A stretch of 34,342 bases of DNA from NCBI GenBank assembly GCA_012719085.1, contig JAAYBA010000021.1:1-34342 (forward strand), given 5' to 3'. This document shows, one piece after another, positions 4 through 34,342 of the stretch. The stretch comes from Planctomycetota bacterium (GTDB lineage Bacteria; Planctomycetota; Phycisphaerae; Sedimentisphaerales; Anaerobacaceae). The position numbers and the translations under genes are program-made. The notes under the pieces are model-generated. The model saw only the letters and a program-made list of their open reading frames with translations, made no database searches and had not been told where the DNA came from. Each line of letters begins with the position of its first letter. Position 1 is the first letter of the stretch.

Positions 4-78
4 GGTGAAAGACGGGATTCGAACCCGCGACCCCCAGAACCACAATCTGGTGCTCTAACCAGCTGAGCTACTCTCACC
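4..78 (-). tRNA. tRNA-His (GTG anticodon)
   Basis: On the minus strand the sequence folds as a cloverleaf. The acceptor arms GTGAGAG (71-77) and CTTTCAC (5-11) pair with one G-T. The anticodon arm is CCAGA-TTGTGGT-TCTGG with anticodon GTG, and the T arm is GCGGG-TTCGAAT-CCCGT with one G-T pair. An extra G precedes the acceptor stem and faces C at the discriminator position, the G-1:C73 identity pair that is specific to tRNA-His. CCA is not encoded; the DNA continues CTT. Transcription probably starts at the strong promoter at 119-146. Confidence 0.95.
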
Positions 79-80
79 AC

Positions 81-117
81 AAAAACAAGGTGCGCCGAGG
101 AATCCCGACGCACCTTG
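81..117 (-). terminator. Rho-independent terminator of ppdK
   Basis: A perfect 9-bp stem (86-94 with 109-117; CAAGGTGCG on the minus strand) has a 14-nt loop and is followed on the minus strand by five T residues (85-81). It lies 37 bp past the ppdK stop codon and ends two bases before the tRNA-His gene. The -10 box of the tRNA promoter abuts the hairpin on its upstream side. Confidence 0.85.
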
Positions 118-118
118 C

Positions 119-146
119 ATTGTACCGCCGAGACGGTGTCTGTCAA
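119..146 (-). promoter_or_regulatory. sigma70-like promoter for tRNA-His
   Basis: A minus-strand TTGACA (141-146) is followed after 16 bp by TACAAT (119-124): 6/6 and 5/6 matches to the -35 and -10 consensus. It lies just after the ppdK stop codon (154-156). The predicted start, near 112, falls inside the upstream arm of the ppdK terminator hairpin, so a tRNA transcript would lack part of that stem. Confidence 0.7.
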
Positions 147-153
147 TACCGTC

Positions 154-2865
154 TTACTTGTTTCTGACCGCTGCCTGGGCCGCCGCGAGCCGGGCGATCG
201 GCACGCGGAACGGTGAGCAGGACACGTAGTTCATGCCCACCCGGTGGCAGAAGTCGATGCTGCTGGGCTCGCCGCCGTGCTCGCCGCAGATCCCGACTTT
301 CAGGTTCTTGCGGGTCTTGCGGCCGAGCTTGGTGCCCATCTCGACGAGTTTGCCGACGCCCGTCTGATCCAGCTTCTGGAACGGATCATCGCTATAGATA
401 CCCTTGCGGACGTACTCGCCGAGGAACTTACCGGCATCGTCGCGGGAGAAGCCCATCGTCATCTGCGTCAGGTCGTTGGTCCCGAAGCTGAAGAACTGGG
501 CCTCCGTGGCGATGTCGTCAGCCGTCAGGGCGGCCCGCGGCACCTCGATCATCGTGCCGACCATGTAGGGGATCTTCGCCTTGCGCTCTTTGAAGACCGC
601 GTTGATTTCATCGACGATATCGTCCTTGACGATCTTCAGCTCGGCTACGGTGCCGACCAGCGGGATCATGATCTCGGGCAACACCTTCTTGCCCTTCTTT
701 TTCACGTTCAGAGCCGCCTCGATGATGGCGCGGCCCTGCATCCGGGCGATCGCCGGGTAGGTGATCGACAGACGGCAGCCACGATGGCCCAGCATCGGGT
801 TGAACTCGTGCAACGAAGAGACCTTCTCCTGCACCACCTTTGGCTTGACGCCCAGCCGACGGGCCATCTCGGCCTGGCTGGCGGCGTCCTGCGGCAGGAA
901 CTCGTGCAGCGGCGGGTCCAGCAAGCGAACCGTCACGGGCAACCCCGCCATCGCGGTGAAGATGCCCTCGAAATCGCCCCGTTGCAGTGGAAGCAGCGCC
1001 TTCAGAGCGCCTTCGAACTGCTTCTTGGCGACGCCGTACTCTTTGTCCATCGCCTTCTTGGCCTTGTCGTTCTCCGCCGTCTCGACAGCCCGCAGATACG
1101 CCGCGTAATCGTCGGCAGCCAGGATCATCTGCCGCACCGGCCAGATGCGATCGCCCTCGAAGAACATGTGCTCGGTTCGCGTCAGGCCGATGCCCTCGGC
1201 GCCGAAATCGCGGGCCCGCCGGGCGTCAGCCGGCGTGTCGGCGTTGGTGCGGATGCCCAGGGTGCGAATCTGATCGCACATCTTCATGAACTTGCCGAAA
1301 TCGCCGCTGAGCGAGGCCGACACCGTTGCCAACTGGCCGCTCATGACCTCGCCCTTGGAGCCGTCGAGGCTGATCCAGTCGCCTTCTTTCAGGGTGACCC
1401 TTCCGACGCTCAGTTTCCTGGCGGTGTAATCGATGTTCAGGTTGCTGACGCCGGCGACACAGCATTTGCCCATTCCGCGCGCCACCACGGCTGCGTGGCT
1501 GGTCATACCGCCGAACGCGGTCAGGATGCCCTGAGCCGCATCCATGCCGCCGATGTCTTCCGGACTGGTTTCCTTCCGGACCAGAATGACCTTCTTGCCC
1601 TTGTCGCGCCACTGTTCGGCCACCTCGGCAGTGAAGACGATCTGGCCGACCGCCGCACCGGGCGATGCCGGCAGACCCTTCGCAATGACATCCCGCTTGG
1701 CCTTCGGATCGAATTGCGGGTGCAGCAACTGATCCAGTTGATCGGGCGTGACGCGCGTCACGGCGTCCTTCTTGGGGATCAGCCGCTCGTTGACCATATC
1801 CACGGCGATCTTCACGGCTGCCGGCGCCGTGCGCTTGCCGGTACGCGTCTGAAGGATATAGAGCTTCTTTTCCTGGATGGTAAACTCCATGTCCTGCATG
1901 TCTTTGTAGTGCTTCTCCAGACGCGTCATCAGCCGGGTCAGATCGGTATATGCCTTCGGCATGACCTTGCTGAGCTTGGTCAGTTCGATGGGTGTACGGA
2001 TGCCGGCCACCACGTCCTCGCCCTGGGCGTTCATGAGGAACTCGCCGTAGAATTCCTTCTGGCCCGTGCTGGGATTGCGAGTGAAGCAAACGCCCGTGCC
2101 GCAGTCGTCGCCCATGTTGCCGAAGACCATCGCCTGGACGTTGACCGCGGTGCCCAGCAGCCCGGTGATGTTGTTCAACTCACGATAGCGGACGGCGCGA
2201 GCGCCGTTCCACGAACCGAACACGGCGTTGATCGCGTGGGTCAACTGGACCTTCCCGTCCTGCGGAAACATCTCGCCGACGTGTTGCTTGTAGACCTTCT
2301 TGTATTCCTCGACGACGCCGTGCAGTTGCTCGGCGTTCAGGTCGCTGTCCACTTTCACGCCGGCCTTCTTCTTGGCCGCATGAATCTTCTCTTCGAAGTA
2401 ATCATGGTGGCAGCCGATCACCACGTCGCCGAACATGTCAATGAACCGACGATAGATGTCGTAGGCGAAACGGGCGTTGCCGGTCTTCCTGATAATGCCT
2501 TCCACGACCTCGTCGTTCAGACCGAGGTTCAGGACCGTATCCATCATGCCGGGCATCGAGGAGGCCGCACCGCTTCGAACGCTGACCAGCAGCGGACGCT
2601 CCGGGTCGCCCAAACGCATCCCCATCGCCCTCTCGAGCTTGGCCAGGTTCGCCGCAACTTCCTCGGCCAACCCCTTCGGCCACTTGCCACTGGACTTGTA
2701 GTATTCTCCGCACACCTTCGTGGCGATCGTGAAACCCGGAGGCACAGGCACGCCCAGGTTGGTCATTTCGGCGAGATTGGCGCCTTTGCCCCCCAAGAGT
2801 TCTTTCATCTTGGCATTGCCTTCAGCCTTTCCGTTGCCGAAGAAATACACCCGTTTTTCTGCCAT
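154..2865 (-). CDS. ppdK: Pyruvate, phosphate dikinase
   Basis: PPDK interconverts pyruvate, ATP and phosphate with PEP, AMP and PPi in the cytoplasm, working in glycolysis or gluconeogenesis. The 903-residue product has the family layout. The N-terminal nucleotide-binding part starts near GGKGANLAEM (26-35). The central phospho-histidine domain has GGMTSHAAVVARGMGK with catalytic His457. The C-terminal PEP/pyruvate barrel has EVPRAA, FGTNDLTQ and the catalytic Cys860 in GICGEHGGEPS. The open frame extends further upstream, but the ATG at 2865 is chosen because AAGGAG stands 9 nt before it and family similarity begins with MAEKRVYFFG. The 82 upstream codons look unrelated to any PPDK and lie across the likely promoter. 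The gene seems monocistronic, with its own promoter (2987-3015) and terminator (81-117). Confidence 0.97.
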   Translation of the reverse strand: MAEKRVYFFGNGKAEGNAKMKELLGGKGANLAEMTNLGVPVPPGFTIATKVCGEYYKSSGKWPKGLAEEVAANLAKLERAMGMRLGDPERPLLVSVRSGAASSMPGMMDTVLNLGLNDEVVEGIIRKTGNARFAYDIYRRFIDMFGDVVIGCHHDYFEEKIHAAKKKAGVKVDSDLNAEQLHGVVEEYKKVYKQHVGEMFPQDGKVQLTHAINAVFGSWNGARAVRYRELNNITGLLGTAVNVQAMVFGNMGDDCGTGVCFTRNPSTGQKEFYGEFLMNAQGEDVVAGIRTPIELTKLSKVMPKAYTDLTRLMTRLEKHYKDMQDMEFTIQEKKLYILQTRTGKRTAPAAVKIAVDMVNERLIPKKDAVTRVTPDQLDQLLHPQFDPKAKRDVIAKGLPASPGAAVGQIVFTAEVAEQWRDKGKKVILVRKETSPEDIGGMDAAQGILTAFGGMTSHAAVVARGMGKCCVAGVSNLNIDYTARKLSVGRVTLKEGDWISLDGSKGEVMSGQLATVSASLSGDFGKFMKMCDQIRTLGIRTNADTPADARRARDFGAEGIGLTRTEHMFFEGDRIWPVRQMILAADDYAAYLRAVETAENDKAKKAMDKEYGVAKKQFEGALKALLPLQRGDFEGIFTAMAGLPVTVRLLDPPLHEFLPQDAASQAEMARRLGVKPKVVQEKVSSLHEFNPMLGHRGCRLSITYPAIARMQGRAIIEAALNVKKKGKKVLPEIMIPLVGTVAELKIVKDDIVDEINAVFKERKAKIPYMVGTMIEVPRAALTADDIATEAQFFSFGTNDLTQMTMGFSRDDAGKFLGEYVRKGIYSDDPFQKLDQTGVGKLVEMGTKLGRKTRKNLKVGICGEHGGEPSSIDFCHRVGMNYVSCSPFRVPIARLAAAQAAVRNK

Positions 2866-19070: not shown

Positions 19071-19681
19071 CTCAAATCGCGATCGATGTCGCCCTGCTGC
19101 CGGAAGCGAGGATTGCCCGCCTTGCCATTGAGGTGAACCGAAAGTTGGTAGGCGGCGGCAAGGGGATCGTGCTGGATGAGAGCGCGTGTCTGCCACACAT
19201 CTCACTGGCAATGGGTTGCATGGAACGCTGCCAAACCGATTCCATCGGCAAGACGCTGACCGCGGTCGCAAGGGACTGTGTTCTCGATGAACTGACGATC
19301 ACGGGGATCGTCACCGTATTGAACGCGGCAGGTGAGCCGAATTCGCTCTTCGCTGTGGCGAAGACCAGGGCCCTTCAGACGTTGCACGAGCGGATCATGA
19401 TGGCGATGGAGCCCTATATGAGCCGAGAGGTCACCGCAGATATGATCTGGGGGGATGATGAGCCTGCGCCGAGCACGCCGGCCTGGGTTCGCGACTATCG
19501 CGAGAAGGCTGCATTTGCCGCGTTCTTTCCCCACATCACGATTGGATACGGAACGGTGGCTGAGCCGATGACGTTCCCGATCCGATTTGTCGCGCGGCAA
19601 ATAGCCCTTTGTCATCTGGGCAATCACTGCACGTGTCGCGAAGTGCTCGCCTCAGCGGCGATGCCTTTCAGTGGGCGATGA
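19067..19681 (+). CDS. 2H phosphoesterase superfamily protein (2'-5' RNA ligase-like)
   Basis: The 2H superfamily hydrolyses or ligates 2'-5' linked or cyclic phosphate RNA and nucleotides, using two H-x-[ST] motifs. Both are present: His44 in LPHISLAMG and His156 in FPHITIGYG, about 110 residues apart, with the expected small-residue strand context. The 204-residue length fits. Subfamily and substrate are unknown. The start codon overlaps the putP stop (ATGA), so translation is coupled to the symporter. The 3' end overlaps the 3' end of the convergent gspF-like gene by 14 bp, leaving no room for a separate terminator. Confidence 0.85.
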   Translation: MTQIAIDVALLPEARIARLAIEVNRKLVGGGKGIVLDESACLPHISLAMGCMERCQTDSIGKTLTAVARDCVLDELTITGIVTVLNAAGEPNSLFAVAKTRALQTLHERIMMAMEPYMSREVTADMIWGDDEPAPSTPAWVRDYREKAAFAAFFPHITIGYGTVAEPMTFPIRFVARQIALCHLGNHCTCREVLASAAMPFSGR

Positions 19682-20855
19682 CGCTGGAGACCCTGAAGAC
19701 GGGCAGCAGAAGTGCGATGGCGATCGTCCCGATCACGATGCCGAGAATGGTGATCATCAGCGGCTCGATCACGGTCATAACGCTCTGGATCGACGCCGCG
19801 AGCTTCTTCTCGTAGAAGACCGACACCTTGTCGCAGACGGCGCCGAGTTGCCCGGCCTTCTCGCCGGCCCGGAGCATCTGGATGATGCTCGGTGAGATCA
19901 GCTTCGCCCGCTCCGAGATGAGGATGGCTTCGGAGAGCTGGTAGCCGTCCTGGATCCTGCCGTCCACCTCCGCCCAGAGTTGCTCGAAGTCGTAATTGTC
20001 CACACAGCCCTGAATCACGTGGATGGCATCGAGCAGGCGAACACCGGTGTTGACCATCGTCGCCATGATGCGCATGCTCCGCGTCACGACCATGTCCACA
20101 AACATCGTGCCAATCACCGGAGTGCGGATCTTCACCCCATCGAGGATGCGCCGCCCGGAGATCGTATGAGACCACAGGTATAGGCCGAATCCAAGCAGAA
20201 TCACGGTCGTCACGAGCATCGCCATGATCTCTACGTTGCCCAGGATGCGGCTGAAGTGCACGAGGACCTGGGTCAGTTTCGGCAGAGCCGCCCCGCGTGT
20301 CTCATAAATACGCATGAAACGAGGCAGGACGAAGAACATCAGTGTTCCGGTGGCGGCAATGGCCATCAGGACCATGATCAAAGGATAGGTCAGGGCTCCC
20401 AAGACACGCTTGCGTGTATCGGCCTCGAAGGTGAGATACCCGGTCAAGACGGTGAGCATCTCGACCATCTTTCCGGAGGCTTCGGAGGCCTTCACCATAC
20501 TGATGAACATCCTGTTGAAGATGCCGGGATAGAACGCCAGGGCCTTCGAGAACATCTCCCCGCTCTTGACCCGTTCAGACAGATCGAGGATGACCGCTTT
20601 GAAGCGGGGATCTGCCGCCTGTTCGCCAATGGCATCGAGCGCATCGCTGAGGATGACGCCGCTGTCCAGCATGACCGCCAACTGGGTGGTGAACAAAATC
20701 AGATCGGTGCTCTTGACCCGGACCCGTTCCATCGCCCTTATATCCGGCGCATGGCGAACGATCTCGCCAGGCTCCGGCTTGCCGCCCCCGGTCGCATCCG
20801 ACACTGCAGCGGCATTCGAGCCGGCCTGTCGCATCTCTGCTGTCACTGTTGCCAT
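19668..20855 (-). CDS. gspF: Type II secretion / type IV pilus inner-membrane platform protein (GspF/PilC)
   Basis: GspF/PilC is the polytopic platform that couples the assembly ATPase to the growing pilus. The 395-residue product has two T2SSF repeats, each with a cytoplasmic helical bundle and a membrane segment. Repeat one begins LILFTTQLAVMLDSGVILSD (about 52-71) and contains FYPGIFNRMFISMVKASEAS; repeat two begins MVVTRSMRIMATMVNTGVRL and ends in the hydrophobic C-terminus. The first ~45 residues are a Gly/Pro-rich lead without known domain. It is 26 bp after the gspE gene and is the last gene of the minus-strand pilus run. The start has only a weak ribosome binding site. Confidence 0.95.
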   Translation of the reverse strand: MATVTAEMRQAGSNAAAVSDATGGGKPEPGEIVRHAPDIRAMERVRVKSTDLILFTTQLAVMLDSGVILSDALDAIGEQAADPRFKAVILDLSERVKSGEMFSKALAFYPGIFNRMFISMVKASEASGKMVEMLTVLTGYLTFEADTRKRVLGALTYPLIMVLMAIAATGTLMFFVLPRFMRIYETRGAALPKLTQVLVHFSRILGNVEIMAMLVTTVILLGFGLYLWSHTISGRRILDGVKIRTPVIGTMFVDMVVTRSMRIMATMVNTGVRLLDAIHVIQGCVDNYDFEQLWAEVDGRIQDGYQLSEAILISERAKLISPSIIQMLRAGEKAGQLGAVCDKVSVFYEKKLAASIQSVMTVIEPLMITILGIVIGTIAIALLLPVFRVSSVIAH

Positions 20856-20881: not shown

Positions 20882-22618
20882 TCAGGATTCGACCGTCGTT
20901 GGTGCATCCAACGCGGCAATTCGCAACACCTCTTCGATCGATACGATCCCCGCCTTGACCTTCTCGATACCATCGAAATGCAGCGGACTCATCCCCTTGG
21001 CCAGGGCGACCGCACGCAGTTTCTTGGCGCTGATCCGCTCGTTGATCATCTCCATGATCTCATCGTCTGGGACGAGCAGCTCATGAATGGCGATTCGTCC
21101 GGCGTACCCGGTGTTGCGACATTTCTTGCACCCGAGACCTCGATAGAACTTGCATGTTTGCCCTCCCTGAGCCTGGACGGCCTTCTTCAGACTGGCCGGT
21201 GGATCGTATTCGGTTTTACAGTTCGGGCAGATCTTGCGGACCAGACGCTGGGCCAGCACCCCCTTAAGCGAAGCGCTGACCAAGTACGGGGCCACGCCCA
21301 GATCGAGCAGCCGCGTCACCGCGCCCGGCGCATCATTGGTGTGCAAAGTTGAGAGCACCAGGTGCCCGGTCAGGGCGGCCTGGACGGCGATGTTGGCTGT
21401 AGCCTGATCGCGGATCTCGCCGACCATGATGATATCGGGGTCCTGTCTTAACAGGCTCCTTAGAGCGGTCGAGAACTCGAACCCGACTCCGGTATTGACC
21501 TGGAACTGGTTGATGCCCGAGATGTTGCATTCGACCGGGTCTTCCACGGTGCAGATGTTCACCTCTTCGTTGTTGAGCTCCGACAACGCCGCATAGAGCG
21601 TGGTGTTCTTGCCCGACCCCGTCGGACCCGTGACAAGAACGATGCCGTTGGGCACCTGAATGACTTCGCGAAAACGCTGGAGATTGTCGTAGGTGAAACC
21701 GAGCGACTCGAGGTTGTACAGGATCTTCTGCGGGTCGATGACGCGAATGACGACCTTTTCGCCGAAGTTGCCCGGCATTACCGAGACGCGCAGGTCGATG
21801 GGTCGGCCCTCAACGAGGACGTGAATGCCGCCGTCCTGCGGCAGACGACGCTGGGCGATGTCCAACTCGGCCATGATCTTGATGCGCGAGACCACCGCCG
21901 CGTGCATCTGGTGCGGCGGACGCATCTTCTCGTACAGCTTGCCATCGACGCGGTAGCGGACGCGCAGCCGCTTCTCATCGCACTCGATGTGGATGTCGCT
22001 GGCGTTCTCCCGGACCGCGTTGTACAGCAGATAGTTGACCAGCTTGACCACCGGCGACTGGCCGGCCACCTCTTCGAGATTGCTGATGTCCTGCGTGATG
22101 CTCTCGATCAGCGTGAACTCTTCGAGACCCTCGTCGTCAATGATGTCGTCGATCACGAAGACGTTGGCCGCCGGCAGATAGGACTGGAGCGTGGCTCTGA
22201 TGTCCTTGGTGGTCGAGCAGACGACGCGGACCCGGCACCCGCTGATCCGCGCGATCTCGTCGAGCAGAAAGACATTCGTCGGCTCGTTGACCGCCACGGT
22301 CAGGACGTCGTGCACCTTGAACAGGGGCAGGACGATGTGGGCTTCCAGGAACTCGCGCGGCAGTAGTTCCACCGCCTTGGGATCACACAACTTTGGACTT
22401 ACCTGCGCGTACGGAACGCCGTAGGCTTCGGCCAGAGCCGCCGCGATCTGGTTCTCTGTGCAGTAGCCCATCTCGACAAACAACTCGCCGAGCAGCTTGC
22501 GATGGCCCTTGTCCTGTTGCTCGGCGAGCGCATGGTCGATCTGCTCCTGAGTGACCACACCCCGCGCCAGCAGAAGCTGGCCGAGCTGCATCTTATTCTC
22601 AAGCAGAATCTGGCTCAT
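20882..22618 (-). CDS. gspE: Type II secretion / pilus assembly ATPase GspE/PilB, with MshEN-type N-terminus
   Basis: This hexameric ATPase powers pilus or pseudopilus assembly at the inner membrane. Residues 10-70 form a MshEN-type region with two short repeats (LGQLLLARGVVTQEQIDHAL from 12; LLGELFVEMGYCTENQIAAA from 42), the fold that binds c-di-GMP in MshE. The ATPase core has SDIHIE (208-213), Walker A GPTGSGKNTTLY (331-342), the Asp box EDP (359-361), Walker B DIIMVGEIRD (395-404) and the His box STLHTND (423-429). A tetracysteine zinc site is at C464, C467, C497 and C500. The residue after the Walker lysine is Asn338, where Ser or Thr is normal. The 578-residue length is normal. The STAS gene lies 33 bp upstream. 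Confidence 0.96.
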   Translation of the reverse strand: MSQILLENKMQLGQLLLARGVVTQEQIDHALAEQQDKGHRKLLGELFVEMGYCTENQIAAALAEAYGVPYAQVSPKLCDPKAVELLPREFLEAHIVLPLFKVHDVLTVAVNEPTNVFLLDEIARISGCRVRVVCSTTKDIRATLQSYLPAANVFVIDDIIDDEGLEEFTLIESITQDISNLEEVAGQSPVVKLVNYLLYNAVRENASDIHIECDEKRLRVRYRVDGKLYEKMRPPHQMHAAVVSRIKIMAELDIAQRRLPQDGGIHVLVEGRPIDLRVSVMPGNFGEKVVIRVIDPQKILYNLESLGFTYDNLQRFREVIQVPNGIVLVTGPTGSGKNTTLYAALSELNNEEVNICTVEDPVECNISGINQFQVNTGVGFEFSTALRSLLRQDPDIIMVGEIRDQATANIAVQAALTGHLVLSTLHTNDAPGAVTRLLDLGVAPYLVSASLKGVLAQRLVRKICPNCKTEYDPPASLKKAVQAQGGQTCKFYRGLGCKKCRNTGYAGRIAIHELLVPDDEIMEMINERISAKKLRAVALAKGMSPLHFDGIEKVKAGIVSIEEVLRIAALDAPTTVES

Positions 22619-22651
22619 ACCGTGTCCCTGTTCACATCCCTTCCGGCGCCC

Positions 22652-24660: not shown

Positions 24661-24718
24661 GGCCCTCCTCACGGTCAGCAGGTTCCAGGGGATTCGGCGT
24701 TCATCGCCGTCGGCACGT

Positions 24719-25111
24719 TCAACCCCGAACGGCCACAGCACGCTGATACAGGATGTCCTGGATCGTCTTGAGCAGTTCCTTGGGACTGAAAGGTTTGCTC
24801 AGGCACTCTTCGATCCCAAGCGATTCCTGCATTTCCTGCGTGATGGCGAAACTGCGCGCCGTCAGCAGAACCGCGGGGATGTGCTTCGTCTCCTCGTTCC
24901 TTCGCAGCTTTTCGATCAGCTCGATCCCGGTGACGAATGGCATCTGATAGTCCGTCACGATGATGTCGGGCTTCTCGCTGCACGCGAGTTCATAGGCCTC
25001 CGCTCCATTGTTGGCCGCAACGACGTCATATCCATTGTTCCGCAGTTTGATGGCGACAACGTGAATGATGTGAATTTCATCATCCGCAACCAGCACCTTT
25101 TTGCCTGTCAT
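24719..25111 (-). CDS. Receiver-only response regulator (CheY-like)
   Basis: The 130-residue protein is a single receiver domain. Acidic residues are at Asp10 and Asp11 (VLVADDE), the phospho-acceptor is Asp54 (VTDYQMP), the switch Thr84 is in LLTA and Lys106 is in SKPF. The frame is open well upstream, into the histidine kinase gene, but the ATG at 25111 has GGAG 9 nt before it and the fold starts right after. There is no output domain, so it must act by binding a protein. The kinase gene ends 64 bp upstream and the HD-GYP gene starts 58 bp downstream; both are the natural upstream and downstream partners. Confidence 0.92.
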   Translation of the reverse strand: MTGKKVLVADDEIHIIHVVAIKLRNNGYDVVAANNGAEAYELACSEKPDIIVTDYQMPFVTGIELIEKLRRNEETKHIPAVLLTARSFAITQEMQESLGIEECLSKPFSPKELLKTIQDILYQRAVAVRG

Positions 25112-25175
25112 TCTGATCCACTCCAATACGAGATTATGGGAAGGCTCTCTCCGGAAAGAGGCACAAGACCGTCGG

Positions 25176-26624
25176 TCACCGGGTCGCGCCGGCCAGTTCC
25201 GCGGCGGCCAGAGGCAGTTCGAATCCAAACGTGCTTCCGACTCCGACCTGACTTGCCACAAAGACCCGGCCATTGTGCACTTTCTCAACGATTTGACGGA
25301 CCAGGTTCAACCCCAGACCGGTCCCTTTGGCTTGTTTATTGTTGGCGCCTACACGATAGAACTTGTCGAATACATGGTTGATCTCATCGGCCGGGATTCC
25401 TACCCCGGTATCGGTGACTGTCACGCGCGCCATCGCATCGACTTCGTTCACGTCTGTCTCGATCCGAACGCTTCCTCCGGCCGGCGTGTACTTGACGGCG
25501 TTGCTCAGCAGGTTCACGATGACCTGGCTGATCATGTCCTTGTCCGCCATGACCTGATCGTATACGATGGGGTTGCATCCGGTGACCGTGATGCCCTTGT
25601 CCTCGGCGAACCCCTTGATCATCTGCATTTGCTGTTCGATCAGAATCGTCAGGCTGACCGGCTCTTTCTGGACCTTGATCAACCCCGATTCGATTCGTGA
25701 GACATTGAGAATGTCCTCAATCAGACGATTGAGCCGCTGTGCCTGACTCTGAATGACCTGGTAGAACTCCTTGCGCGTCTGTTCGTCGTCCGCCTCGCCA
25801 TCGACGAGCATCTCGGAATACGCCGTGATCGAGGCCAATGGCGTCTTCAATTCGTGCGAGACGTGGCTGACGAAGTCGTTCTTCATCTGCGCCACCTCCT
25901 TCTCTCGCGTGATGTCGTGCAGCACAGCGACCACGCCGGAGACCGTGTCCTGTTCCTGCACGCACGAGACAATCGTATCGAACGTGCGGGGACCGTCGGG
26001 TCCGGCGAACGCCATCTCCCGTCGCGTGGCCTCGGTGGCGCTCTGCCGGCTGCGTTGGATCAACTCGACAAAGTCCTCGTACTGCGCATCGAGGTTGCGG
26101 CCCAGCGGCTGGTAACGGGCCTGTTCCGGATCGAACGCAAACAGGTGAGCGGCTGCCGTGTTGGCCATCAGGAGGCGGTCCGATTCATCCACGACCACCA
26201 CCGCGTCGCGGAGACTGTAGATGATTGCCTCGGTGTGCTGCTTCTGCCGATCGGAAAGCCGCGACCGAAGACGAAGATCCTTCAGTTCGGTTTCCAGCTC
26301 GGCGATGGTCTTCTGTCCATCCTGTAGACGCGTCTGAACGGTCTCTGCTGCTCGCTCGATCGTCTGCAAGTCGGTCGCAGCGGCCGAATCCCATGTGAGC
26401 TGCCGAGCTATGGACGCAACCGTCCGGGCCAGCCGATGATAGGCCAGACCGAGGACGATCACGCCCACAGCCCCAAGGCAGCATGCGGCAAGACGCCACG
26501 CAGCGAATCCGCTGCGCCACCCTTCTCCGATGCCAGAATCGTACGGCCCGGTCAGGGCCGCGAGGCACAGCGAGGCCATCACCGTACCAACCGCGGCCCA
26601 AACCAAGCGTCTTTGACGTCTCAC
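25176..26624 (-). CDS. Membrane sensor histidine kinase with PAS domain
   Basis: The 482-residue kinase has two membrane helices (about 8-25 and 45-62) with only ~20 residues outside, so it probably does not have a classical periplasmic sensor domain. A coiled-coil region (about 85-125) leads to a PAS domain (about 130-240, with VVVVDESDRLLMANTAA and VVAVLHDITREKE). The HisKA motif is VSHELKTPL with His257, followed by the N box NLLSNAVKYTP, G1 DTGVGIP, F box FDKFYR and G2 GTGLGL. The start is a GTG with GGAGGAG 5 nt before it. It follows the secretin by 57 bp and precedes the receiver gene, with which it likely forms a phosphorelay. Confidence 0.93.
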   Translation of the reverse strand: MRRQRRLVWAAVGTVMASLCLAALTGPYDSGIGEGWRSGFAAWRLAACCLGAVGVIVLGLAYHRLARTVASIARQLTWDSAAATDLQTIERAAETVQTRLQDGQKTIAELETELKDLRLRSRLSDRQKQHTEAIIYSLRDAVVVVDESDRLLMANTAAAHLFAFDPEQARYQPLGRNLDAQYEDFVELIQRSRQSATEATRREMAFAGPDGPRTFDTIVSCVQEQDTVSGVVAVLHDITREKEVAQMKNDFVSHVSHELKTPLASITAYSEMLVDGEADDEQTRKEFYQVIQSQAQRLNRLIEDILNVSRIESGLIKVQKEPVSLTILIEQQMQMIKGFAEDKGITVTGCNPIVYDQVMADKDMISQVIVNLLSNAVKYTPAGGSVRIETDVNEVDAMARVTVTDTGVGIPADEINHVFDKFYRVGANNKQAKGTGLGLNLVRQIVEKVHNGRVFVASQVGVGSTFGFELPLAAAELAGATR

Positions 26625-26681: not shown

Positions 26682-28412
26682 TCAGCGTCTCTTCCAGTTC
26701 TTGGCCTCTTGCTGGTCGATCGCCTGCTGGACGATGCTGTCGATCCGCTCGAGTTCGGCCGGATCGGTTTCGACGACGATCCGCTCGCGAAGCCGTAGAG
26801 CTTCGAGATAAGTCGGGCGCATCATCAGCGAGACCTTCACGTTGTACATAGCGCTATCGACATCGCCTTCGAGATAGTACTTGGCGGCCCGGGCATAGGC
26901 GTCTTCGGCCAATCGGGCGCGATCGATCGCCTGCATACTTTGCTTGGCGCCGTCCATCTTCAGGCGAATGTCATCCGCCCGGTCGGCCCCGCCCGTCTGC
27001 GACGGCTCATGGATGATGTGCGGCGTCAGCATGATGATCACCTCTTCCCGCTGCGCCGTATCTTTGGTGCCTCGGAACGCCGCCCCCACTAAAGGCAGAT
27101 TTCCAAGAAGCGGCACCTGCGACCGCACCGTGGTCACCCCGTCCCGGAACAGACCGCCGATAACGACTGTCTCCTTGTCCTTGACGATTACGTTCGTACG
27201 TAATTCCGTGGTCGTTTCATCCGGAATGTTGTTCTGCTTCAATGTGCCGTCACTGTCCTTCGGATAGATGTCCATCCGGATGTATCCATCGTTGCCGATG
27301 TACGGACGGAAGACCAGCCGGGTACCGGTTTCCAGAAAGTCCACCGATTCGGTGGTCGAGGTCTGGGTCTGCGTGCTCTGGTTGACGTAGCCGATCTTTT
27401 TACCGATCAGCACCGAGCCCTCCTGCTTGTTGACAGCCAGGATCTTCGGATTGGCCAGCAGCGTCGTGTCCGTTACATCCTCCAGAGCAGTGATGATCGC
27501 CTGGACGTTGTCGGACGAGAAGCCGACCGTCATTCCCTTGGTTCCGGGTGTGTTGGCGAAGCCAAACGTCTCCCACGGTGTCCCTTGCCCACCGACGAGG
27601 TTGGCGGGGAAATCGCTGATCGCCACACCGCTGAGCAGGTTCCAATCGACGCCGAACTGCATCGTCTCTGTGAGGCGCACCGCCAGAATGGTCGCCTCGA
27701 CCAGCACCTGCTTCGGGCGGACGTCGACCTGGGCAATGACCTTCTCGGCCCTCTCGATGTTCTCGGGATAGTCGAAGATCACGATCATGTCATTCAACGC
27801 CATCTTGTCGCCGCCCCCGCCACCGGAGAGCGAACCGCCGCCACCGGAGCCACCCGCCGAGGAAATACTGCTCTCAGCGGCAGTGGTCGTGGTGATTTGC
27901 GCCGCGGCGCTGAGCACCGGTCGGATCAGCTTCTCGGCCTCCTGCGCCGTCGTGTAATACAGCGTGATGACCTTGAAGACCATCCGGTCCGGGTCCTGGC
28001 GGATCTTCTTGTCCTCGTCCTTGGTCCGAATGTGAATCAGATTCCCTTCCGGCACGGCGACGAACTTGTCGCCCAGCATGGCGGCCAGCGCCTGCTCGAA
28101 GGTCACATCCCGCAGTTCCGGGCAATTCAGCGGCCCGGTCACGCCGGGCGAAGGAACGATGTTCTTTTCGCACCGCTTGGCGAGCAGCCGCAGTCCGTCA
28201 CGGACATCGCTGTCCTTCCGGAAGGCGATGAACTTGATCAGATCGCCTTCCACCCAGGCCTGATCCGGTTCCATGGCAATGGTGTCTGTGGCGCTGTCCG
28301 CTGACACCGTATCGCTTTCGGCGCCGGTGGCAGTGGCACACCAGGTCAGCAGGGCCACGGCGAGAAGCCAGCGACCCCAACGAAGTCTCGTGAATGTCTT
28401 GTCATTATGCAT
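26682..28412 (-). CDS. pilQ: Outer-membrane secretin (PilQ/GspD family)
   Basis: Secretins form the outer-membrane gate for pili or secreted proteins. Numbering from 28412, there is a signal peptide (about 10-31, RWLLAVALLTWCATATGA), an STN/N0-like domain (about 69-112), an N-domain interrupted by a Gly/Ser-rich insert (about 187-202), and the secretin core (about 240-468), ending VPLLGNLPLVGAAFRGT and EVIIMLTPHII. A 100-residue tail after the core contains a TPR-like helical pair (DAYARAAKYYLEGDVDSAM). The ATG at 28412 is chosen for AGGAG 7 nt upstream; the frame is open further. The length is 576 residues. It sits after pilMNO and the PilP-like gene, the usual order. Confidence 0.94.
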   Translation of the reverse strand: MHNDKTFTRLRWGRWLLAVALLTWCATATGAESDTVSADSATDTIAMEPDQAWVEGDLIKFIAFRKDSDVRDGLRLLAKRCEKNIVPSPGVTGPLNCPELRDVTFEQALAAMLGDKFVAVPEGNLIHIRTKDEDKKIRQDPDRMVFKVITLYYTTAQEAEKLIRPVLSAAAQITTTTAAESSISSAGGSGGGGSLSGGGGGDKMALNDMIVIFDYPENIERAEKVIAQVDVRPKQVLVEATILAVRLTETMQFGVDWNLLSGVAISDFPANLVGGQGTPWETFGFANTPGTKGMTVGFSSDNVQAIITALEDVTDTTLLANPKILAVNKQEGSVLIGKKIGYVNQSTQTQTSTTESVDFLETGTRLVFRPYIGNDGYIRMDIYPKDSDGTLKQNNIPDETTTELRTNVIVKDKETVVIGGLFRDGVTTVRSQVPLLGNLPLVGAAFRGTKDTAQREEVIIMLTPHIIHEPSQTGGADRADDIRLKMDGAKQSMQAIDRARLAEDAYARAAKYYLEGDVDSAMYNVKVSLMMRPTYLEALRLRERIVVETDPAELERIDSIVQQAIDQQEAKNWKRR

Positions 28413-28481
28413 AGCGTTACTCCTGTTCTTCCACATCCTGCTTGATCCTACTGATTTCATTATCGTTCTAAAGCACATCGG

Positions 28482-29090
28482 TTACTTGCTTACGTCGGTT
28501 GGCGGCGATAGCTTCAGCGTGTACTGTCTATCTCCGCATGTCATCATCACAGCGTCTTTCTGAATCTGTACTACTTCGAATGGGTAGAAGTCCGTACCAT
28601 CCTGAAGTGCGAGCGTGTCCCCGACGCGAATCAGTCGATCGTTGACAAATGCCTGCGGGTGCTCGCTCCACAGTACGGCCTCCAGCTCGAGTGTCTTGGC
28701 CAATCTGGTGATCACTTCTTCTGTTCGACGGGTTTGTTCAGTCTTCACATTTGCTTGCTGTATTGTGCCTTGCGATCGGGAGCCACTTTCGAACCGGCTC
28801 CAGTCGTTCGCAGTAAAGAAGTCGCGATGAATACGGTCGTTCCGCCCCGGCTCGACCGGTAGGTCGACGAACCGTATCGACGGTCTTTCGTCAACCACCT
28901 CGGCGGTCTTCTGCGGAGAGGCCGGCCTGGCGTCGGCCGCATCGGGTTTCTGCCCGGCCAGGACCCGCAGCCACATCACCGCCATAATGGCTACGAGGGC
29001 AACGGCCACGCCCGTCTTTCGGCCGTCTCGGACCAGATAACCTGCCAACCGGCCGGCCGAGCCAAGCATATGTGTCGCATTACGCGTCAT
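28482..29090 (-). CDS. PilP/GspC-like inner-membrane protein
   Basis: The protein has one N-terminal membrane span (about 26-45, KTGVAVALVAIMAVMWLRVL), a disordered and charged middle part, and a C-terminal beta-rich stretch (about 133-195: LEAVLWSEHPQAFVNDRLIRV, then DFYPFEVVQIQ). That end resembles the HR domain of GspC or the globular part of PilP, which link the inner-membrane complex to the secretin. Position between pilO and the secretin gene supports the PilP role. Its start overlaps the pilO stop by 11 bp. It lacks a lipobox, unlike many PilP proteins, which makes it closer to GspC in topology. The length is 202 residues. Confidence 0.7.
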   Translation of the reverse strand: MTRNATHMLGSAGRLAGYLVRDGRKTGVAVALVAIMAVMWLRVLAGQKPDAADARPASPQKTAEVVDERPSIRFVDLPVEPGRNDRIHRDFFTANDWSRFESGSRSQGTIQQANVKTEQTRRTEEVITRLAKTLELEAVLWSEHPQAFVNDRLIRVGDTLALQDGTDFYPFEVVQIQKDAVMMTCGDRQYTLKLSPPTDVSK

Positions 29091-29694
29091 CGTTCACGAC
29101 ACCCCGCAACTTGGCGCTCGTCGACTTACCGGCCTCCTGCGTCTTCTGTGCGCGATAGAAGATGACGGCGTCCGCTTCCATCACCACGACGCCGCTGAAT
29201 TCTCGATCGTTGGCCAGCGTGGTCCTTTCGACCCGCACAAGCCGGTCAAGCTTCTGAAGATCGGTGAAGAAGCCGAAGATACCGGCCAGGTTCCCCGAAC
29301 ATTTCATGTGCACCGGGATGCAGACCAGATCGTTCGACGCGTCTTCCTTACCGAAGACAACGTCCTGATCCGACAGACCGTGTTCGGTCATGATGTGCGC
29401 GATCTGTCCCAGAAACAGCCCCAGCGCACTCTCATCCGGAATCCGATCCCGGGTGTTTCCAACGCGGTGATCGATCTCCTCCAGGCGCGCCCTGAGGGCG
29501 CCGAGCACTTCGCTCTGCGATTCGGCTGTACGGATCATCTGCATCTGCTGGCTCTTTGCATCGGTCACGGACTGGAGTCGCTCGCGCGACGGCAGATACC
29601 CATACAATACGAAATCGGCGAGGAAGAGCCCACCGACGGCGAAGACCCATAACTGCTGTCTTCGCAGCAACGATCTGGATCGACTCTCGCTCAT
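29080..29694 (-). CDS. pilO: Pilus assembly protein PilO-like
   Basis: PilO is a bitopic inner-membrane protein that dimerises with PilN. This 204-residue protein has one membrane helix (about 14-34, LWVFAVGGLFLADFVLYGYL), a coiled-coil segment (about 40-80, rich in Gln, Arg and Glu) and a C-terminal ferredoxin-like core, with LGLFLGQIAHIMTEHGLSD and CIPVHMKCSGNLAGIFGFF. Start and stop overlap neighbours: ATGA with pilN upstream, and 11 bp with the PilP-like gene downstream. The family is weakly conserved, so the call rests on size, topology and order as much as on sequence. Confidence 0.85.
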   Translation of the reverse strand: MSESRSRSLLRRQQLWVFAVGGLFLADFVLYGYLPSRERLQSVTDAKSQQMQMIRTAESQSEVLGALRARLEEIDHRVGNTRDRIPDESALGLFLGQIAHIMTEHGLSDQDVVFGKEDASNDLVCIPVHMKCSGNLAGIFGFFTDLQKLDRLVRVERTTLANDREFSGVVVMEADAVIFYRAQKTQEAGKSTSAKLRGVVNDDA

Positions 29695-30395
29695 CGCTTG
29701 TCTCGCTCCTCATAGTTGGCCAGATAGCAGACGATTTCGAACTCAGTAACCCCAATCGTCTGTGTCTCCTTGCGTCGGCTATCTTCTTCGGACGCCGCAG
29801 CGAACTCAATCGTCTTCTCGCGATACAGCGGATGAACCTGCTGGAAATAGGGCGAGTCGCCCAGGCGACAGACGAGGGCTCCGACCTCAGCCGAGTTGGC
29901 GGCAATCCCCATCAATGCCACGCGGAATCGGACGTTTCCGAGGGAAACCGCCTTCGTCGAAGTACGCGAGGCTCCGGCGATTCGTACTGCCGAGCCGCTG
30001 CGATCCGCGTCCTTGCGAGCCGTCGAGAACGGTTCGGAGAGGAACTCCACACGGCCCAGGACCACACGTTCGCCGATCACGTGGCTGATCTCCGCCAGCA
30101 CGGCCGCCATATCGATTCGCGCATCGACCCGCTGAAGAGCGGCCACCTCGGCTTGTTGCGTGCCAAGCTGCTTGCTCACAGCATCATATTCGCGCATGAT
30201 ACCTTCGGCCCAATATCGTCGGTCTTCCAGCCGAGCCAGTTCGGCGTTTACACGCGCGACCCGGTGCGACGCAACCGTGTTGTAGGTCACCATCGCAAGG
30301 AAGAAGGCGATCAGCACGGCGTATTGCCGTCTCATGTGAAGGCGGCGACGTCGACCTTCCTTGTGCCATTCCGGAAGAAAGTCGATCTCTTTCAT
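29691..30395 (-). CDS. pilN: Pilus assembly protein PilN-like
   Basis: PilN binds PilM through a short N-terminal cytoplasmic tail and pairs with PilO. The tail here is EIDFLPEWHKEGRRRR, close to the classical INLLPWR-type PilM-binding motif in position and character. A membrane span follows (about 22-40, YAVLIAFFLAMVTYNTV), then a coiled coil (about 45-95) and a C-terminal domain. The 234-residue length is somewhat more than the usual ~190; part of the excess is a Ser/Thr/Lys-rich loop near residues 125-150. It overlaps pilM and pilO by 4 bp each, so it is tightly coupled to both. Confidence 0.85.
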   Translation of the reverse strand: MKEIDFLPEWHKEGRRRRLHMRRQYAVLIAFFLAMVTYNTVASHRVARVNAELARLEDRRYWAEGIMREYDAVSKQLGTQQAEVAALQRVDARIDMAAVLAEISHVIGERVVLGRVEFLSEPFSTARKDADRSGSAVRIAGASRTSTKAVSLGNVRFRVALMGIAANSAEVGALVCRLGDSPYFQQVHPLYREKTIEFAAASEEDSRRKETQTIGVTEFEIVCYLANYEERDKR

Positions 30396-31543
30396 GAGGG
30401 CGCCCCTTCCAGGATCGATTCAAGCCCGAGATCGGATTTCACCAGTTCGGCCGTCGAAGTGCCCCATCCCTTGAGGGTGAGCCCCACGGCCAGAGCGAAA
30501 TCTGCCGTCGAACCGAAGTCTTCGATTCGAGTGCCGATCTGCCCCAGGTCGAAGCCGCGAAATGGCTCCGCCACGTCCGCTTCGATCGCCAGGTGATGTC
30601 TCATCACATCGAGGAAGGCCTGCTCCGCGACACCGCCGCCGGAGACAATGGCCCGTTCAACCCGTTTGCCACGGAACGTCACGGTGTAGTATCGCAGACA
30701 CAGCGCGATTTCGGCGGCCAACTGCTCGGCCGTCGCGTGCAGCGTGTCGCGGACAAGCCGACGCGTCGTCGGATCGCCCGTATCGGACGACAGCATCGCG
30801 CGGCGCAGCGCCTGCACATCCGCCAGAGGGATCGACAGCTTCGCCGCCACATCTTCGGCAAAGCGTGCCGCGCCGAAGGCCATCTGCTTGACGAAGCAGA
30901 TCTCGCCCGTGCGTCCGAGCACGACTGTGGTGTAGCGATGGCCCAGGTCGAGGAACATGATGGTTCGTTCCCTGTCCTCCTGACGTCGCATCACCCGCTC
31001 GAAGTTGCGAAACAGCGCGCACGGCCCCGCATCGACGCCTACCGGCCGCAGGCCGAGATCTTCCAGCCGTCCTACGTGGGTCCGGATCGTCTCGTCGTCG
31101 CTGGCGAACAGGATGTACTCATTCTTGACCTCGTCGCCCTGCCTAACACTGCCGGCCGATACGTAATGAATGGTATCGGCCCGGGGATCCAGAGCGAACC
31201 GGTGGGCCGCCTCCCTGCGCAGCGTCTTCTCAACGTCATCCATCTCCGTCTCTGCCAGACGCAGCGACGTGATCCGCAGCCCGCTTGCCGGCAGGGCCGA
31301 GACCACATCGCGTCCTTTGAATGCACCGGCCGTCATCAGACGCCGGATGGCCGGCGCCACCTGCTGCCGCCAGGAGTTCTCATCGCGTGCATCGCTCAGG
31401 TCAACAGCGGCTCTCTCGGCCGCGAGCAGCCGCACTCCGTCGTCACAGACGGCCAGTTGGACCATCTTGATCGCACGGTGTCCGATGTCCAGCCCGATGG
31501 GCAGAACCTTCTGTCGTCTTGTCATCCAATGGCCGATCTGCAT
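30392..31543 (-). CDS. pilM: Pilus assembly actin-like ATPase PilM
   Basis: PilM is a cytoplasmic FtsA-like protein that binds ATP and the PilN tail. The three actin-like motifs are visible: phosphate-1 GLDIGHRAIKMVQL near the N-terminus, phosphate-2 MFLDLGHRYTTVVL in the middle and the adenosine motif IVSGGGVAEQAFL toward the end. The 383-residue length is typical (about 350). The start is uncertain: the ATG at 31543 and the one at 31525 both lack a clear ribosome binding site. The gene begins 10 bp after the pseudopilin stop and overlaps pilN by 4 bp. Confidence 0.92.
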   Translation of the reverse strand: MQIGHWMTRRQKVLPIGLDIGHRAIKMVQLAVCDDGVRLLAAERAAVDLSDARDENSWRQQVAPAIRRLMTAGAFKGRDVVSALPASGLRITSLRLAETEMDDVEKTLRREAAHRFALDPRADTIHYVSAGSVRQGDEVKNEYILFASDDETIRTHVGRLEDLGLRPVGVDAGPCALFRNFERVMRRQEDRERTIMFLDLGHRYTTVVLGRTGEICFVKQMAFGAARFAEDVAAKLSIPLADVQALRRAMLSSDTGDPTTRRLVRDTLHATAEQLAAEIALCLRYYTVTFRGKRVERAIVSGGGVAEQAFLDVMRHHLAIEADVAEPFRGFDLGQIGTRIEDFGSTADFALAVGLTLKGWGTSTAELVKSDLGLESILEGAPS

Positions 31544-31553
31544 GTCACATCAC

Positions 31554-32072
31554 TCAATCCGAGACGGAGATGAATCCCGTCACCGCCTCGACTGTTACTG
31601 TCCGGCTGATGTCCCCGGCCTGCAAAACCACGTTGCCGCCGTTATCCGGGCTGCCGAGCGAGTTGAACGTCACGGTATTGTCGGTGAAACTTGTGTTGAG
31701 AAGATCCACGCGATCCAGTCTCCCGTCGGCGGCGAAATCGACGATATACCCGTTCTCCTTCTGGGTGATCGGGTGTTTGATCACCGTGCCGGTCGTCAGG
31801 TTCTTGATCGAATAACGTTCGTTCCCCGGCTCAAATACGACTGAGTGCGGCTGGCCCGTCGTAATGGCCATACTCTTGGCGTATTCGAGGTCGGCCGCCA
31901 CGATCCCCCCCGCCGCGCGAATCTGCATGCTCGCCGCCGAGGAGATCAAGGGCACCGCAATCGCCGCCGTGATCCCGATGATCACGATTACGATCAACAA
32001 CTCGATTAGTGTGAATCCGCCGTCGAATTGCGTCGCCCGTCCAACAGATTGTGTCTTCATATTCCTATTCAT
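31554..32072 (-). CDS. GspH-like type II secretion / type IV pseudopilin
   Basis: The 172-residue protein has a short leader ending in Gly19 and the class III cleavage motif GG/FTLIELL, with Glu24 at mature position +5. A hydrophobic helix follows (about 20-45), then a small GspH-type beta domain (about 50-170) containing AADLEYAKSMAITTGQPHSV. Such minor pseudopilins prime and tip the filament. The ATG at 32072 is about 11 nt after GGAGG, rather far; Met5 is an alternative. It precedes pilM by 10 bp. Confidence 0.9.
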   Translation of the reverse strand: MNRNMKTQSVGRATQFDGGFTLIELLIVIVIIGITAAIAVPLISSAASMQIRAAGGIVAADLEYAKSMAITTGQPHSVVFEPGNERYSIKNLTTGTVIKHPITQKENGYIVDFAADGRLDRVDLLNTSFTDNTVTFNSLGSPDNGGNVVLQAGDISRTVTVEAVTGFISVSD

Positions 32073-32432: not shown

Positions 32433-34217
32433 TCATGGTTGCGGACGACGAACGCTGCGAAAGAACGCCCCCGCCGCCGGACTCCAATGCTGCGCCCCCG
32501 CTCCATCGCCAATCACAATCGCCGCTCGAAGCGGATCGGCCTCAATCGTCATATCAGGATGGTCGTCACCGGTCTCATCGAATCGCCAATGACCGAGCAG
32601 ACCAGCGGGATTCGTCCCCTGCCCGGCTGCCAGCGACGCAACCTCTGCCTCGCTGATGGCGCGACTGTAGATTCGGATATCGTCGAGCAGCCCTGTGTAT
32701 CGATACTCCGTGGTCCGATTTGCTCCAATGTTCAGATGACTCAGTCCCCACCCCGGAAACCACGAGACCGAACTCTCGGTCTTGTGCAGAACTCCGTCGA
32801 GATAGGACTTCATGGTAGATCCTTCGCGGACCACAGCGACGTGATGCCATCCACCGGTAACATCGGCCACCTGGATGCCGGTCGCCCAGGGCGAGCTCCA
32901 CCACCATCCGTCTGCAGGTCGGGCGACAATCTCTCTCGGGGAGCCGTTGTTGAACTGCAGTCCCCAGTGATACATGGATCCATTGGGATTGCATTTCGAG
33001 AGAATACCAGCCCAGGTTACCTGGCTTCCACCGGCGTTCATCCACACAGCCAACGTGCAATCGCCGGACAACTGGAGCGCTGTGACGCTCCTGGACGTTT
33101 GCACGTAGTCATCGGTGCCGTCGAACTGCAGCGCCCCGCCGATCTGCCCGCCGGAGGGCTGCCAGGCGGCGTTGCCATGAACGGAACCATAGTTCCCGTT
33201 GCCCGACACGTCGGCAGAAGTGATCTCAGCGATGTCCCCCTTCACGAACAAGCCGCCGCGGACGTTGGCGTCAGTGACGCCGGCGCCGAGAAGGACCCGG
33301 CCGTCGACCACAGCCAGACCCTCGATCTGCACGGTGGCGAGGTCTCCCACGATCAGATCGCCCGTGACGTAGAGGGCCGGCAGATTGTCCGGCGCCGCGA
33401 GCGTCACGTTGTCTCCGAGAATCCGCAGATTGCCCTGGACGATCAACATGTTGTGGATGGTGACATGATCGCCGAGAATCAGATCGCCGCTACAGTAGAG
33501 CACATGCGGCGGGTCATAAGGGCCGTAGGTCTGGCCCGACAGAAGGCCGGCCGGCACGGTGTTCGTCGTATAGCAGGACGTGAACGCTTCCACGGTGACG
33601 GCAGGCCAGTTCAGGGAGAGCGCTTGTGTGTCGAGCCGGCCGGTTTTGCTGCCGGTCCCGCCCAGAGCGGCGGCGAACACGTCGCCGTGTATCATGCCGT
33701 GATTGGTCAGAGTGCCGTTGCAGTAGACATCACCATAGACGGTCAAGTCGGGGGTGAGTGTCGTGGCTTGCCCGGTCCAGAGGACGACGGCCGGGTCGAG
33801 GCGAAGCGTGGCTTCGAGGCGGCTCTCGCCCGTCCGCCGGCCGTTCCGCTCACGATAGGCCGTGCTGCTGATTTCATACGTGCAGAAATCGCTCGGATCG
33901 GAGTCGTCGCGAACGATTGCGACATCGTAGAAATCGGTGCTGTCGGCGTCGAGTTGCTGACGCACTTCGCCCGTCCAGTAGACCGAAGGGACCTCCTGGG
34001 GATTCAGAAGCAGACCACGGGCGTGCTCCAGACCGGAGGTCGCCAACTGGTCCATCTGCATGCGAACCGCCATGTTTTGGCCCGCCGCCAGTTCCGTATC
34101 GCAGCGTGCGATGAAGCCCAGCGCCAGGATCGTGATCGCCATGATCATGCCCAACACCAGCAGCAGGGCCACGCCCCGGGGAGAAGACCGCATTGTCTGC
34201 GTTCGCTTACACATCAT
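32433..34217 (-). CDS. PilX/GspK-like pilin with beta-helix and inserted LamG domain
   Basis: The 594-residue protein begins like PilX/GspK minor pilins. A short leader ends in RG (14-15), followed by the hydrophobic VALLLVLGMIMAITILALGF, with no Glu at +5. Residues about 155-330 form repeated short strands (DLTVYGDVYCNG, LIVQGNLRILGDN, LYVTGDLIVGD) like polymer-forming/bactofilin-type beta-helices. A LamG (concanavalin-like) domain spans about 335-532, including GALQFDGTDDYV, WHHVAVVREG, SYLDGVLH and GLLDDIRIYSRAIS. The usual first strand of LamG (HWRFDE) instead follows the domain at 543-548. The end (WSPAAGAFFRS) looks like a PilX tail. It starts 11 bp inside the upstream partial gene. Confidence 0.85.
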   Translation of the reverse strand: MMCKRTQTMRSSPRGVALLLVLGMIMAITILALGFIARCDTELAAGQNMAVRMQMDQLATSGLEHARGLLLNPQEVPSVYWTGEVRQQLDADSTDFYDVAIVRDDSDPSDFCTYEISSTAYRERNGRRTGESRLEATLRLDPAVVLWTGQATTLTPDLTVYGDVYCNGTLTNHGMIHGDVFAAALGGTGSKTGRLDTQALSLNWPAVTVEAFTSCYTTNTVPAGLLSGQTYGPYDPPHVLYCSGDLILGDHVTIHNMLIVQGNLRILGDNVTLAAPDNLPALYVTGDLIVGDLATVQIEGLAVVDGRVLLGAGVTDANVRGGLFVKGDIAEITSADVSGNGNYGSVHGNAAWQPSGGQIGGALQFDGTDDYVQTSRSVTALQLSGDCTLAVWMNAGGSQVTWAGILSKCNPNGSMYHWGLQFNNGSPREIVARPADGWWWSSPWATGIQVADVTGGWHHVAVVREGSTMKSYLDGVLHKTESSVSWFPGWGLSHLNIGANRTTEYRYTGLLDDIRIYSRAISEAEVASLAAGQGTNPAGLLGHWRFDETGDDHPDMTIEADPLRAAIVIGDGAGAQHWSPAAGAFFRSVRRPQP

Positions 34218-34342
34218 CGTCCTCGCTCACGAGGCCGTCGCCGGCGTCGTTGACCAGGTGCTGGGCCGAGGCCAGCAGCTTCGTGCCGATCTGATAGCGG
34301 CTGGTGGCGCCGTTCTCAATCTGTTCGAACGCGATCGCCAGC
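34207..34342 (-). CDS. 3' end of an unidentified pilus-locus gene (partial)
   Basis: The frame enters from beyond the window edge and ends with TAA at 34207-34209. The visible 44 residues are hydrophilic and helix-prone (TSRYQIGTKLLASAQHLV) and end in an acidic tail (SEDDDV). No motif is visible. It overlaps the start of the PilX-like gene by 11 bp, so it belongs to the same transcript, and is perhaps another minor pilin or an assembly factor. Confidence 0.6.
   Translation of the reverse strand, partial: LAIAFEQIENGATSRYQIGTKLLASAQHLVNDAGDGLVSEDDDV

Follow-up and report, generated by a model that had tools for sequence, protein, structure and literature searches.

How a lectin-type domain comes to sit inside a minor pilin with its strands seemingly out of order is the question raised by one gene of the window, i.e., the whole stretch of 34,342 nucleotides from a Planctomycetota bacterium of the class Phycisphaerae that was analysed here. 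The first-pass annotation had proposed that a LamG domain interrupts a PilX-like minor pilin and is circularly permuted, with the motifs SGNGNYG and FDGTDDYV in the lead and the strand that normally opens the domain, HWRFDE, at the rear. The gene and its parts are arranged as follows:

32433..34217, minus strand: P0001, K-position minor pilin of 594 aa with LamG insert (open reading frame; GspK-like N-terminus, E 6.4e-5)
34005..34181, minus strand: prepilin signal and long N-terminal helix, residues 13-71 (AF2 helix; sequence)
33243..33746, minus strand: pilin head, solenoid-like with many short strands, residues ~158-325, up to RGGLFVKGDI (AF2 secondary structure and the equivalent segment in insert-less homologues)
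32613..33224, minus strand: LamG from just past strand A to the last helix, residues 332-535, the first part of the permuted domain (HMM, Pfam)
32667..33125, minus strand: lectin core from FDG to DDIRIYS, residues 365-517, the counterpart of the stretch swapped among homologues (L196/L197 mosaic; core trees)
32574..32600, minus strand: displaced LamG strand A, LLGHWRFDE, residues 540-548, at the C-terminal end of the insert (HMM, AF2)
32436..32552, minus strand: pilin C-terminal tail, residues 556-594 (colinear with insert-less homologues)

The motifs lie in the proposed order within this single 594-residue open reading frame: SGNGNYG (residues 338-344, window 33186-33206, minus strand) precedes HWRFDE (543-548, 32574-32591, minus strand), which is C-terminal to the rest of the LamG domain, and FDGTDDYV is early as claimed but ends one residue beyond the 371 first given (365-372, 33102-33125, minus strand). 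The span 32433-33220 assigned to the insertion does hold it, but the insert proper covers residues ~332-555 and the span extends beyond it over the C-terminal tail that belongs to the pilin. An antisense open reading frame at 32439-34253 found no support as a gene and was dropped. Pfam Laminin_G_3 (PF13385) matches residues 366-527 with E 1.7e-22 (80.6 bits vs a cut-off of 27.6), yet the domain lacks the canonical strand order of that family with strand A first, and is a permuted relative rather than a canonical member.

Strand order was assessed with an HMM built from 55 native-order LamGs of the same genome and of other organisms' loci, with strand A included (consensus GLVGYWKLDE). In its native order, the window's insert matches this model only from position 32 on, past strand A, and its C-terminal end gives a second, weak match to positions 16-29, i.e., strand A. 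Doubling the insert produced a single contiguous match (15-226) across the junction, and doubling 11 canonical control LamGs brought no gain. The inserts of homologous pilins behave alike: in 25/25, the match to the unrearranged sequence begins only after strand A, at model position 26-33; a weak separate strand-A match lies at the C-terminal end in 20 of these 25; and in doubled form the best match continues from strand A over the junction in 23 of them. Moving the C-terminal segment to the front raised the score of the window protein by 12.1 bits, which none of 200 shuffles equalled, and those of all 24 homologues by 5.3-18.4 bits, exceeding all 200 segment shuffles in 23 and 197 of 200 in the remaining one, L021. 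Strand A leads in each of the 70 canonical LamGs collected across these genomes, and within this sample only the pilin shows the permuted order. Together with the predicted fold (see below), the HMM, doubling, and shuffle tests bear out the circular permutation.

Nor is the permutation confined to the window gene; it is an old feature common to a pilin family. Homologues were found in 93 of the 161 genomes of the order, and among 59 distinct ones examined the insert is present in 34 and absent from 25. All 34 inserts share one slot, one breakpoint, and one strand order, with a pattern that reads roughly GLFVxxxIxE-[LamG]-L[IV]GHWxLDExGSxxxITAAPxKTAIxxW...AAGAFFRSIxR. Homologues that lack the insert are continuous across the slot (GLFVGSGIAYSGGSMTITAVPSKTA; L035, for example, reads GLFVGSGIAYSGGSMTITAVPSKTAITTWPSPGNPERWSPVAGAFFKSIDR), and because they run through uninterrupted, this comparison, which the first-pass annotation had suggested, reveals a clean insertion into continuous pilin sequence. 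One of the 34, L032 (G030:C306), has a frame change within its LamG core that splits the pilin, reflecting either an assembly error or a broken gene. In genomes of family f7, matches are confined to the N-terminal ~140 residues of open reading frames of 150-220 aa, apparently pilins without the solenoid-like head.

The host protein itself has the prepilin signal and long helix (residues 13-71) of a type IV pilin-like protein, with a mature N-terminus of RG/VALLL and no Glu at mature position 5. It matches the GspK model at residues 14-81 only, with 22.6 bits vs a cut-off of 130 (E 6.4e-5), and because this score is far under the cut-off we name it for its K position rather than as GspK. That position follows from an operon order of G-like, G-like, I-like, J-like, this gene, H-like, PilM, PilN, PilO, possible PilP, and secretin, as compiled from the window and the flanks of L040 and L041, with the I-like and J-like pilins called by weak matches and order. 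Its place among G, I, J, and H pilins and its missing Glu5 are those of the K-type (GspK/PilX) class. The C-terminal tail, in turn, is not specifically PilX-like as had been thought: the 594-aa protein gave no match to the PilX family in a Pfam search at E up to 1 (which divergent members could escape), the operon position and the weak match point to K, and PilX membership was dropped. The neighboring components are:

31554..32072, minus strand: GspH-like minor pilin (PF12019, E 3.5e-7)
30392..31543, minus strand: PilM (PF11104, E 4.6e-22)
29691..30395, minus strand: PilN-like protein (PF05137, E 0.0017, under the cut-off, plus position)
29080..29694, minus strand: PilO (PF04350, E 9e-12)
28482..29090, minus strand: possible PilP (position only; no Pfam or NCBIfam match)
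26682..28478, minus strand: secretin of PilQ/GspD type (PF00263, E 1.3e-38)
20882..22618, minus strand: PilB/GspE assembly ATPase with MshEN (c-di-GMP type) domain
19668..20855, minus strand: PilC/GspF platform protein (PF00482, E 3.7e-45)

We read this system as a type 4 filament with the window gene as its K-position pilin. It might instead be a type 2 secretion pseudopilus in which the lectin serves to display or choose exoproteins active on polysaccharides and not to attach the cell, as the K-type pilin, the GspG/H-like names, and the many LamG proteins encoded by the genome would allow; yet PilM, PilN, and PilO each have a gene of their own, which is the arrangement of type 4 pili, the assembly ATPase scores alike as PilB and GspE, and the genome carries a PilT-family retraction ATPase at another site (TIGR01420, 458 bits), so that we regard a secretion role as unlikely though deserving some weight. 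Between the secretin and the MshEN-type ATPase, the window (20882-26624) also encodes a PAS histidine kinase and an HD-domain protein, a neighborhood that suggests control of the filament by c-di-GMP. The 4.5-Mb genome as a whole (G000) has 40 LamG matches and 19 matches to T2SSE-type ATPases.

Within this pilin, host and lectin core have followed different histories. A host tree of 58 rows, restricted to pilin columns, requires 4 changes of insert state and rejects a single clade of insert-bearing pilins (p-AU 0.001). In a core tree of 34 permuted and 55 canonical LamGs (about 195 columns, with L030 as a long branch), the permuted cores occupy at least six places among canonical LamGs, with nine permuted/canonical changes of which six are forced by well-supported branches; a single clade of permuted cores occurred in no bootstrap tree and was rejected (p-AU 3.7e-5). 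L016 and L029, for instance, are sisters as hosts (100/99) with cores in two separate clades, and the core of L041 is sister to the canonical LamG L137 (100/100), but L194 and L195, which share a clade with L041 in the host tree, have a different core type. The L026 core is 53-56% identical to canonical domains from other genomes and 35% identical to the window core. The edges of the insert track the host rather than the core, with partial r values, from Mantel tests on short segments and related rows, of 0.49 with host (p 0.001) vs 0.19 with core for strand A, 0.56 vs 0.19 for linker-plus-tail, and 0.36 vs 0.05 for the N-edge.

The sister pilins L196 and L197 display this discordance along a single gene. 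Their nucleotide identity is mostly 70-89% along the pilin, continuing into the N-edge, drops to 27-52% for most of the core past FDG, begins to rise at GLIDDxRIYN, and is 86-88% in the tail; their protein identity is 28% in the core and 83% in the tail, with about 80% for flanks and tail. Judged by this identity profile, the pair is a recombination mosaic, and because both breakpoints lie within LamG the permuted frame would have been kept. It is improbable, in our estimate, that permuted LamGs were each inserted ready-made and repeatedly into one slot without any exchange of cores in a standing frame: the polyphyly of the cores and the 4 changes of insert state would fit such a history, but breakpoint and slot are identical every time, strand A and linker follow the host more than the core, and L196 and L197 have strand A and tail in common (67-83% identity) despite unrelated cores. 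For outlying groups, independent insertions of ready-permuted domains could nonetheless apply. On the whole, the slot looks like a cassette in which the lectin core is swapped by recombination inside a fixed permuted frame. A stricter version, in which the frame (edges and strand A) would be permanent in the pilin and cores would be acquired by homologous recombination from canonical LamG genes, of which the same genomes carry dozens, is tentative and falls a little short of even odds; if it were true, the permutation would provide a docking frame through which adhesins at the pilus tip diversify. One canonical LamG in a long open reading frame, L083 (G068:C210:7539-8117), has a core that falls within the largest permuted clade (39% identity to the window core), so that transfer possibly ran in both directions, with L083 a possible case of transfer out of the pilin. 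At the level of sequence, insertion, permutation, conservation, and core/host discordance are established.

The fold was predicted with AF2 from alignments composed of the window protein, L040, L041, and LamG fragments from related loci. The full-length model (30 sequences, pLDDT 75.3) has helix 13-71, many short strands until about residue 331, the LamG domain, and then a strand at 540-544. The model of the insert (residues 320-568, 39 sequences, pLDDT 80.6, pTM 0.82) places its strand 221-229, i.e., residues 540-548, at a pLDDT of about 81, with the ten N-terminal host residues unpacked (pLDDT 35) and the host ends below 40. Taking strand pairing from DSSP and the aligned ranges, the HWRFDE strand (540-548) is predicted as part of the LamG sandwich, as the first-pass annotation had anticipated, and the prediction thus supports strand A completing the jelly roll. 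The insert alignment includes nine sequences with a C-terminal strand A, which possibly aids that strand, and the full-length run without these nine still contains strand 540-544, with its structural alignment reaching 548. In VIA-align, the full-length model superimposes 355..548 on PAPP-A and 353..548 on PTX3 (Z 18-19), and 333..532 on AbnA (Z about 20); the insert model superimposes 355..559 on PAPP-A 13..216, the whole PAPP-A LamG (189 residues, 2.8 A, Z 18.8), and 332..532 on AbnA domain 4 (Z about 18), and it also aligns with pentraxins, whose chain ends in a strand at the 540-548 site. Because a sequential aligner takes strand A only against strand-last proteins (PAPP-A, pentraxins) and DxSGNG only against DxSGNG-first ones (AbnA), this pair of alignments is the pattern that a permuted domain between two topologies should give.

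These alignments bear on whether the insert is a rearranged LamG at all or a domain of pentraxin/PAPP-A type with a natively C-terminal strand. The model fits best or equally best on PAPP-A, dimethylformamidase, and pentraxins with the C-terminal strand included, and these proteins share with the insert, as do LamGs that begin at FDG, a GLVAYWxFxE-type strand after the last helix. Their break, however, falls after DxSGNG...W and that of the pilin insert before it; hence, the insert has a similar end but, in place of an FDG start, begins about 30 residues earlier at DxSGNG. We consider native pentraxin descent highly improbable, because the insert retains the DxSGNG...W segment that canonical LamGs have before FDG and because its cores nest among the canonical LamGs of the same genomes (as for L026 and L041 above), which together set its breakpoint apart from the pentraxin one. 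The insert works like the pentraxin topology but is of other descent. LamGs that start at the FDG strand and have strand A plus DxSGNG after the last helix (L050, L051, L053, L066, L067, L070, and L071) represent another natural permutation, one that is broken at a different point and that in this sample comes mainly from Bacteroidota and relatives. Although proteins with LamGs in tandem are frequent in these genomes and the insert is indeed directly preceded by a host strand, a complete LamG with that host strand (GGLFVKGDIAE) as strand A and HWRFDE as remnant of a second LamG is scarcely credible, since GGLFVxxGI is pilin sequence also present in insert-less homologues, matches strand A in no homologue and stays unpacked in the insert model, while HWRFDE is kept across many genera, unlike a remnant, and more of a second LamG, or a complete LamG with a second partial copy, was found in 0/34 insert-bearing homologues. 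A truncated second LamG and a vestigial strand (retained in 34/34) were dropped as candidates; the permutation is real and conserved.

We put a probability of roughly 0.78 on the following explanation as a whole, which combines the K-position pilin, a permuted insert derived from an array, core swaps, and a lectin at the tip. One repeat length of an ancestral LamG array would have been cut out at the loop that connects strand A with DxSGNG and inserted into a loop between two strands of the pilin head, a single step that would leave a LamG with strand A at its C-terminal end, given that one repeat length cut after strand A is exactly the permuted unit. The two edges of the new domain are chain neighbors in the parent LamG and therefore adjacent, which suits a loop. 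Tandem LamGs with short linkers exist (L048, L055, L063, and L068), and L099 from a related genome has two LamG units 210 residues, i.e., one repeat, apart; a regular-expression search for tandem LamG junctions found none, the pattern being too strict. Later, recombination in conserved LamG motifs would on several occasions have traded the core (FDG...DDxRIYN) for that of a canonical LamG or of another permuted pilin, leaving strand A and pilin in place. An exchangeable lectin at the filament tip would determine which polysaccharide or surface the cell grips, and core exchange probably alters what the pilus adheres to; we infer a lectin-bearing pilin of Phycisphaerae acting as a pilus-tip adhesin, with a sugar-binding-type domain and putative binding. 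This would give pilus tips a route to change their binding by swapping a lectin core in a fixed frame without rebuilding the pilin. With possible donors, acceptors, and empty sites at hand, the origin and consequences of a natural circular permutation become directly testable.

Modular lectin pilins were already known, and we found no prior description of a permuted insertion in a K-type pilin, its conservation, or core exchange. Literature searches combining circular permutation with either LamG or pentraxin plus laminin G returned nothing relevant (an absence that is no proof of novelty), and none was found on TafC as a fimbrial protein. The TafC family profile NF052521 matches the LamG core with its positions 187-360 (E 2.8e-11, 43 bits vs a cut-off of 410), covering that core alone and leaving the pilin part without a match. 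In the accessible part of an InterPro survey of modular pilins (PMC8179133), PF13385 is among the frequent modules, so that pilin plus Laminin_G_3 is a common architecture there as well, but an N-terminal motif (IPR012902) is required and the domains are portrayed as joined through a short linker; that part mentions neither permutation nor a constant insertion site nor the swapping of cores. The window protein likewise joins a pilin to a domain not specific to pilus biology, yet its module is internal, and the pilin tail resumes afterwards instead of the module following C-terminally via a short linker. Surveys that seek domains appended after the canonical N-terminal motif would miss such cases. 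The tip pseudopilin of type 2 secretion, GspK, also has an extra domain inserted in its pilin module according to the accessible part of the same source (PMC8179133) and shares the K position and the absence of Glu5, but its insert is alpha-helical where that of the window pilin is a LamG, and the match to the GspK model is limited to the N-terminal 80 residues, with a score far under its cut-off. A further parallel is the modular minor pilin PilC of Streptococcus sanguinis. It bears a C-terminal concanavalin A-like lectin and binds glycans, and adhesion at the tip via glycans has been proposed for it (PMC9934059). In PilC, a pilin with Glu5, the lectin is C-terminal after an Ig-like module (PMC9934059), whereas in the window's K-type pilin without Glu5 it is permuted and lies within the head, and the pilin's own tail follows.
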